Of a stretch of 64,000 nucleotides of DNA, positions 31,605 to 32,952 are shown piece after piece (positions within the stretch are counted from its first letter, which is position 1; every line of letters starts with the position of its first letter). This DNA is from an uncultured Pirellulaceae bacterium (GTDB lineage: Bacteria > Planctomycetota > Planctomycetia > Pirellulales > Pirellulaceae): contig CALKCK010000019.1 in assembly GCA_938083195.1 (NCBI GenBank), positions 1-64,000 of the forward strand, read 5' to 3'. The notes below the pieces were generated by a model that was given only the letters and a program-made list of their open reading frames with translations, was not told the DNA's origin and did no database searches. The translations under genes and the position numbers were made by a program.

Positions 31605-31638
31605 AAAGAGGCGAGTTAATTAGCTCGCCTCTTTTTTT
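31605..31638 (+). terminator. Rho-independent terminator of sigma-70 gene
   Basis: Eleven-base arms AAAGAGGCGAG and CTCGCCTCTTT with an 8-base loop, the right arm running into a seven-T tract. It lies 28 bp after the sigma gene stop codon and should insulate it from the selenoprotein candidate downstream. Confidence 0.93.
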
Positions 31639-31899: not shown

Positions 31900-32952
31900 A
31901 TGAAACGTCGTCTAAAAATAACAAGTTTATCATTGGCTTTTTTGGGTCTTGTCCTTGCGGGCAACTCAGTATTGGGACAGCAGAATCGGTCGACCAGTGG
32001 TACTGGGCCTTGGGATTATTTGCAAGACAAATACGATGCAAATGGAGACGATCAGCTTACCGAAGCTGAATACTCTCGCGGGGCTGAGAAATTCCAGCGA
32101 CTCGATACGAACCGTGACGGAGTCATTTCAGCCAAGGATTGGGGTGGAGGGAATTCAGGCCAGCAGTCTTCCAAGGGTAGGCAGAAACGATCACGGAATT
32201 CTTCGGAAATTACGCCACCAGCGAAGGGGGAAAAGGCGCCTGGGTTCAAGCTAACTTATGTGAATGAACCATCAAAAACTGTAGAGCTGGCTAGTTTCCA
32301 AGGCAGTAAACCAGTCGCGCTTATTTTTGGAAGTTGTTCGTGACCGCCGTTCGTTCGTTCAGCTGGTCAGCTGGAGAAGTTATTCGAAGAGTATGGTACT
32401 GAGGTTCAGTTTTTTATGGTTTATTGCCGAGAGGCACATGCAATTGATGGTGACAGGCCGATGTACAATTCCATTGTGGAAGAGCCGGTTTCCACGGCGG
32501 AACGTAATCAAATCGCCAAAGACTTTGTAGAGCAATTAGGTATTAAAATGCCGGCGCTACTGGACAAGATAGATGACAAAACAGGAACGGATTACGCAGC
32601 GCATCCCGATCGCTTGTATTTGATTGGAAAAAATGGACGGGTTGCCTACGCCGGAGGACGAGGGCCGTCTGGTTTCAAACCGGATGAGCTTCGGGTGGCA
32701 ATCCGTGTCGAACTTGGAGAGGAACCGTCAGGCGAGAAAAGCAAGCAAGCGAGTCCGATGGCGGCTCGGCGAGGAAATATGTTCATGCCGGCTATCGAGG
32801 CGCTGGATCTCAACAAAGATGGGAGATTGTCAGTCGCCGAAATCGAAGCGGCACCGGAGTCTCTGAAAACACTAGATAAGAATTCAGACGGTGATTTGTC
32901 TAGAGAAGAGTTGCGTCCAGATCAGCGTTTCAGGCCGCGGCGAAGTAGATAG
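31900..32952 (+). CDS. Deiodinase-like EF-hand selenoprotein candidate, in-frame TGA read as Sec
   Basis: Read through the TGA at 32341-32343, this is one 350-residue secreted protein. ATG 31900 has GGTGGA upstream and starts a signal peptide (1-26). Two EF-hand loops follow at 46-57 (DANGDDQLTEAE) and 69-80 (DTNRDGVISAKD). A thioredoxin-fold iodothyronine-deiodinase-like domain spans about 105-275: GSCS-U148-PPF, matching the SCT-U-PPF active site of deiodinases, then the conserved EAH (178-180), PDRLYLI, and GPSGFKPDELR near the end. Two more EF loops lie at 303-314 and 326-337. Both halves share the same frame. A bSECIS-like hairpin follows the TGA. A nonsense mutation is the alternative, but conservation on both sides and the exact position favour selenocysteine. 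Substrate unknown: a redox or dehalogenation role is inferred. Confidence 0.85.
32358..32375 (+). promoter_or_regulatory. Candidate bacterial SECIS element
   Basis: Hairpin in the coding mRNA: arms UUCAGCU and AGCUGGA (seven pairs, one G-U) closing a GGUC tetraloop. Counting the U of UGA as base 1, the loop is bases 25-28. The E. coli fdhF SECIS has the same GGUC loop at 22-25, with G23 and U24 contacting SelB. Loop identity and spacing fit what is known of bSECIS elements. No 3' UTR element is needed in bacteria. Confidence 0.8.

Follow-up and report, generated by a model that had tools for sequence, protein, structure and literature searches.

A putative exported selenoprotein of the deiodinase family with EF-hand loops on both sides of its catalytic domain in a planctomycete

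The window analysed here, a stretch of 64,000 nucleotides, carries a gene whose predicted product can justifiably be described, from its sequence, as built on the same catalytic domain as the iodothyronine deiodinases. Its host is a marine planctomycete that almost certainly reads the in-frame UGA of this gene as selenocysteine (Sec). The least expected result of the analysis is a swap within the family, in which a partner cysteine lies either beside Sec or on a later helix.

The joined frame starts with ATG at 31900, passes one in-frame TGA at 32341-32343 and ends with TAG at 32950-32952, giving 350 aa. The plain ORF list, in which UGA is a stop, split the gene in two. An earlier note on this DNA had joined the two frames across the single TGA into one protein with the landmarks EAH, PDRLYLI and GPSGFKPDELR; the 350-aa frame was confirmed and all three landmarks were found. 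The features are as follows.

31900..32952, + strand: selenoprotein gene, UGA read as Sec148, 350 aa (joined frame, Pfam, TGA kept in four named orthologues)
31900..31980, + strand: probable signal peptide, aa 1-27 (by eye)
32035..32070, + strand: EF-hand loop 1, aa 46-57, DANGDDQLTEAE (pattern, Pfam EF-hand)
32104..32139, + strand: EF-hand loop 2, aa 69-80, DTNRDGVISAKD (pattern, Pfam EF-hand_5 with best stretch 64-81)
32224..32700, + strand: deiodinase-type thioredoxin-fold domain, aa 109-267 (PF00837; Dio3 and Dio2 in PDB)
32335..32337, + strand: Cys146, proximal Cys, aligned with the Cys168 side of Dio3 (SC-T-Sec) (alignment, Cys exclusivity)
32341..32343, + strand: UGA codon for Sec148 (frame, PDB alignment, family column)
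32358..32375, + strand: predicted SECIS hairpin of 18 nt, seven pairs, GGUC loop at 32365-32368
32806..32841, + strand: EF-hand loop 3, aa 303-314, DLNKDGRLSVAE (pattern)
32875..32910, + strand: EF-hand loop 4, aa 326-337, DKNSDGDLSREE (pattern)

The N-terminus shows, by eye, KRR followed by a hydrophobic run, and a hydrophobic segment lies within the first 60 aa in 121 of 136 family gene models. The signal peptide of the earlier note is thus probable, and judging from these features the product is probably exported from the cytoplasm. Between the sigma-factor gene and the selenoprotein gene, a GC-rich inverted repeat followed by T's (31605-31638) looks like a terminator by eye and is absent from the scanner output. 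The promoter scan gave a single site, on the minus strand.

The host genome contains tRNA-Sec (67.4 bits; ARAGORN anticodon tca), SelA, SelB and SelD, all above their cut-offs, so that the search for selA, selB, selC and selD suggested earlier had a positive outcome. SelD (L022, contig C40:5264-6172) sits within a 740-aa open frame, compared with 311 positions in the model, and is possibly part of a fusion.

Relatives were drawn from 392 genomes sampled from the phylum, of which 163 match the protein at E <=0.001 (some through the EF-hands alone), and from 199 genomes of the same family, of which 60 match PF00837, 53 of them above its cut-off. The 145 aligned rows are part of these matches, better scorers first, and 20 further loci come mostly from lower ranks of the phylum list; all were picked by similarity and hence are not an unbiased sample. 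Among the 145 rows, one U row, from the second frame of L132, is a thioredoxin-like non-member, and two rows come from a single broken gene in L058. The UGA column holds Sec in 125 rows, Cys in 19 and a gap in one; in the 20 further loci it holds Sec in 15 and Cys in five. The expectation that Cys or TGA should occupy this column was thus borne out in 144 of the 145 aligned rows and in all 20 further loci. Internal-stop counts were not taken as Sec counts: in L144, L162 and L163 the counted TGA is not the active-site codon, which encodes Cys. Among the genomes whose loci were fetched, a strong SelA match was detected in 78 of 85 with a Sec copy versus 4 of 10 that are Cys-only. The seven Sec genomes lacking one are assemblies that are 67-92% complete, and two of them have a weak match.

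A search of genome contigs with one protein gave four loci. The named orthologues belong to four metagenome-assembled genomes (two Mariniblastus, one Pirellulaceae bacterium and one Planctomycetaceae bacterium). All four keep the TGA, which makes five genomes with that of the window, and in all four a frame whose end resembles the sigma-factor gene of the window lies upstream. Against these orthologues dN/dS is 0.13, 0.09, 0.09 and 0.09 after the UGA and 0.27, 0.12, 0.15 and 0.10 before it. According to this sequence comparison, purifying selection acts on the protein encoded beyond the UGA.

UGA is also a normal stop in this DNA, since 6 of the 29 window frames of at least 250 aa end in TGA. 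That it functions as a stop speaks for a reading in which the codon is an ordinary stop, arose by error or marks a pseudogene, the second half being left untranslated. Against this stand the same TGA in five genomes with purifying selection after it, a family column of only Sec or Cys, and a conserved hairpin (below); we grade this reading as already contradicted and its probability as negligible. As candidates, a plain stop, a pseudogene and a sequencing error were each rejected by the column, by the TGA and selection in the orthologues, and by the further loci. UGA as a sense codon throughout was rejected as well, given the 6 of 29 long frames ending in TGA, beyond which the extensions are 0-60 codons. 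The earlier note had named absent Sec machinery, a sequencing error at the TGA and decayed downstream sequence in homologues as outcomes that would count against it, and none of the three was found. Its selenoprotein reading is strongly supported by the machinery, the column, the SECIS conservation and the selection after the UGA.

In bacteria, the SECIS rule as given in the available part of PMC1088965 is a hairpin just after the UGA with a G in a small loop. The window sequence agrees with this rule, with a hairpin just after its UGA and a GGUC loop, and its single-sequence energy is ordinary: taken alone, the hairpin is no more stable than its shuffled versions (z 0.03). The Rfam scan did not find a SECIS and returned two chance matches on the other strand. 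For the 48 nt after the UGA, folding energy against codon-usage redraws gave a mean z of -0.72 in the 125 Sec rows and -0.46 in the 19 Cys rows, with -0.14 to -0.36 in control stretches of the Sec rows. Because this shift is only weak, conservation of the stem was tested against a null in which codons were redrawn per column and amino acid, so that proteins stay unchanged and relatedness is not kept. The mean longest stem was 6.58 as observed versus 4.76±0.12 in 300 redraws. For the 30 rows that carry the SAG peptide the values were 6.70 and 5.28±0.30, and none of 2000 redraws reached the observed length; the fraction of paired cells in these rows was 0.943 versus 0.887±0.016, the largest redraw (0.948) lying above the observed value. 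Sliding the partner strand, which keeps relatedness, lowered pairing from 0.943 to 0.13-0.53. In L084, from the same genus, a C-G pair is replaced by T-A, both sides having changed. At least five pairs at exactly the place of the window hairpin were found in 41 of 125 Sec rows (38 with GGUC) versus none of 19 Cys rows. A further 27 Sec rows have a loop of three at nucleotide 18; the other 57 fit neither geometry, and most of them, not all, have another stem of at least five pairs. The 19 Cys rows lie slightly above their own stem null (z 3.3). Together, these sequence comparisons indicate that a predicted bacterial-type SECIS hairpin with a GGUC loop is maintained beyond coding constraint.

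The domain matches PF00837 (T4_deiodinase) over aa 109-267 with E 6.9e-27 and 94.7 bits (cut-off 27). EF-hand profiles also matched the joined frame above cut-off, as had been anticipated for both. Phmmer against PDB found mouse Dio3 (4tr3, E 2.6e-20) and Dio2 (9h48, E 1.3e-13), whose catalytic residue aligns on the TGA, in agreement with the active-site position assigned to it earlier. Tyr175, His180, Arg202 and Asp222 occur in all 143 rows that have a letter there, Glu178 occurs in 133 of the 143, and all five align with Dio3 and Dio2; the exceptions in the 20 later loci are Lys at 202 (L172) and Asp at 178 (L181). The proton relay proposed for deiodinases, according to the accessible text of PMC11592359, consists of Ser, Thr, Tyr, Glu and two His. 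The corresponding residues here are Ser145, Ser147 (for Thr), Tyr175, Glu178 and His180. The second relay His of the animal enzymes aligns with column 196, where the window protein has Pro196; of the 145 rows, 121 have Pro and 12 have His in this column. A sub-group combines Cys203 with His196 (L064, L085, L059, L066, L068, L078, L083 and L120), two of them in the genus of the window. Asp185 occupies the position of the Trp in the Dio DGW stretch.

Because the second relay His is Pro, "iodothyronine deiodinase" is unjustified as a name for the function. The label "deiodinase-like" in the earlier note holds for the family, the fold class and most catalytic residues, and does not extend to iodothyronine deiodination, which is not favoured. 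With the vertebrate deiodinases the protein shares the domain, the Sec position, Ser-x-x-Sec-Pro-Pro-Phe, Tyr, Glu, the first His, Arg and Asp, and with Dio1 and Dio3 also the proximal Cys. It differs from them in the second relay His, in the absence of the distal Cys and in its EF-hands on both sides; the available part of PMC11592359 names a membrane anchor in the vertebrate enzymes, whereas a probable signal peptide is found here. A structure predicted from four close sequences had a mean pLDDT of 33.6.

A proximal Cys (145 or 146) is present in 17 of the 144 rows that are ungapped at the Sec column, and none of these 17 has Cys at 203, 209 or 210. Conversely, 125 of the 127 rows without a proximal Cys carry one at 203, 209 or 210, the two with neither being the L058 fragment and the non-member frame of L132. 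The 20 later loci comprise one with the proximal Cys only (L178), 16 with the helix Cys, three with neither (L166, L171, L174) and none with both. Overall, proximal and helix Cys are mutually exclusive, and neither occurs in 3 of 162 members. The trait changes at least three times (in the clade of the window protein, in that of its paralogue and in Dio3) on a tree of 123 rows, built without the Cys columns by a quick method and with weak support for 57 of its 120 inner branches. According to the available part of PMC9141512, the proximal Cys of human DIO1 bonds with catalytic residue 126 and is required for reduction by glutathione. In the alignment, Dio2 lacks the proximal Cys and has one at column 203. 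The parallel between Dio2/Dio3 and the swap in this family is only suggestive, because Dio2 is hard to re-reduce and may be single-turnover (PMC11592359, accessible part) and because Dio2 and Dio3 both have a further, distal Cys. From these alignments, we read the swap as a resolving Cys that may occupy two places.

The earlier description of four EF-hand loops was correct: by eye, pattern scan and Pfam, these are canonical 12-residue loops, two before and two after the domain. A loop before the domain is present in 90 of the 136 gene models uncut at the N side, that is in 90 of 103 with a long leader and none of 33 with a short one; the pattern arises by chance in 0.5% of shuffled N-terminal regions of long-leader members. 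Loops after the domain occur in 14 of 136 models, of which five are orthologues of the window gene and nine are of the paralogue type. The flanks that had been called unusual are thus common in the part before the domain, and only the pair after it is rare.

Extra domains were sought by a Pfam scan of ten relatives. An AhpD-like CMD match lies above cut-off in L057 and under it in L136, and L053 has a thioredoxin domain. A CxYCMGHC motif is found in an AhpD-like tail module of L057, L060, L067, L136 and L140, which are Cys-type and 822-849 aa long. Such redox-domain fusions in relatives would favour thiol or peroxide chemistry.

We consider it moderately probable that the protein is an exported, thiol-dependent oxidoreductase of the Sec/Cys type with putative Ca-binding flanks, for which peroxidase-like activity is more likely than deiodination. 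Sec148, in the active-site loop of the deiodinase-type thioredoxin fold, would attack the substrate, with the proton relayed by Tyr175, Glu178 and His180. Cys146 would then capture the oxidised selenium as a selenenyl-sulfide, and an external thiol would open this bond, by the route published for human DIO1. A Cys of the later helix (209, 210 or 203) would replace Cys146 in most relatives. The substrate would most likely belong to the peroxides or the oxidised thiol partners, not to the iodinated thyronines, and the EF-hand loops may bind Ca2+ and stabilise the protein or attach it outside the cytoplasm. This oxidoreductase reading is supported by the Sec machinery (tRNA-Sec, SelA, SelB, SelD) with the Sec/Cys column, by the low dN/dS after the UGA with a SECIS stem longer than in amino-acid-preserving redraws, by the invariance of Tyr, His, Arg202 and Asp222 across the 143 rows with a letter, by the exclusivity of proximal and helix Cys together with the bond to residue 126 in DIO1, and by the AhpD-like and thioredoxin domains fused in some relatives. 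It is weakened because the AhpD fusions are all in Cys-type relatives, the L136 match being under cut-off, and because 3 of 20 later loci have neither Cys. The z of 0.03 for the window hairpin, the negative Rfam result for SECIS, the SAG paired fraction exceeded by a redraw and the z of 3.3 for Cys rows also count against it as best explanation.

There is a modest chance that the selenoprotein is instead an enzyme that resembles a chaperone or exchanges disulfides and turns over neither peroxides nor halides. The thioredoxin-fold class, a weak ResA match and the secreted location would suit this reading, whereas the CxxC motif is absent and the deiodinase-specific Tyr/Glu/His set is conserved. 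In a further rival reading, the protein is a true reductive dehalogenase that works outside the cell, its Sec attacking the halogen of iodinated or brominated phenols in the way that animal deiodinases attack thyroxine. In its favour, Ser, Tyr, Glu and the first His of the published relay are kept, Dio3 and Dio2 are the best PDB relatives, the proximal Cys is as in Dio1/Dio3, and the second His is present in some relatives (12 of 145 rows). Yet in the window protein that second His is Pro196 and the DGW Trp is Asp185, relatives are fused to redox domains, and a different function was expected by the authors of 2005, in the available part of PMC1088965; such a dehalogenase appears unlikely. Very unlikely, in our view, is a wider scenario in which a large planctomycete family of exported Sec enzymes, the stock of the animal deiodinases, strips halogens from algal phenolics outside the cell, held on the surface by Ca-binding flanks and with selenium recharged through a Cys that moved several times between helix and active-site loop.

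A paper of 2005 described deiodinase-like selenoproteins from marine bacteria and proposed a redox role for them (PMC1088965); a count followed in 2008 (PMC2398784). As far as the accessible parts of both papers go, these marine-metagenome proteins share with the window protein the Pfam family, Sec or Cys forms and a bacterial SECIS. The bacterial motif given in the available text of the reviews of 2022 and 2026 is UxxC (PMC9312934, PMC13188914), in contrast to U-P-P-F here, where the partner Cys precedes Sec by two residues. None of the available portions of PMC1088965, PMC2398784, PMC9312934 and PMC13188914 mentions EF-hands for these bacterial selenoproteins. NCBIfam NF038285 ("deiodinase family protein") matches aa 105-272 with E 1.9e-56; its 192 bits are under the cut-off of 250 and the match does not include the EF part after the domain. 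In the relative L029 this model covers the EF-hand part. As in peroxiredoxins with a separate resolving Cys, the catalytic Cys/Sec is paired with another Cys, borne on a helix in most relatives, and Pfam gave weaker Redoxin and AhpC-TSA matches for the window protein; unlike in peroxiredoxins, T4_deiodinase is the best match and the deiodinase Tyr/Glu/His set is present. Judged from titles and abstract openings in a mostly open-access literature, no listed paper deals with the combination of a deiodinase-like selenoprotein, EF-hands and a planctomycete host; "deiodinase" was absent among the matches listed for papers with the genus names and from the main text of the planctomycete paper PMC4807772. 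The parts are thus known, whereas EF-hands on both sides of the domain, the wide occurrence in the phylum and the Cys swap are undescribed as far as these literature searches show.

The roles of the Cys residues near Sec in animal deiodinases are not fully settled, according to the available parts of PMC9141512 and PMC11592359. With well over a hundred bacterial sequences, and the partner Cys at either of two places, the present family makes this question directly testable. Large and little-studied, the family may show how deiodinase-type enzymes recharge themselves, and a soluble exported member may be purified with selenium more easily than the membrane-bound animal enzymes. Since gene callers that treat UGA as a stop split such genes, selenoproteins of this kind may be under-counted.

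The same genome holds a second UGA gene of the family (L002:670-2274, minus strand, contig C1 near 143222), which has the motif GCLT-UGA-PPF, 535 aa and EF loops both before and after the domain. Close copies of it with the same motif were observed in seven other genomes of the genus. The thioredoxin-like second frame of L132 (minus strand), which contains UGPC and adjoins a family member, is possibly another selenoprotein.
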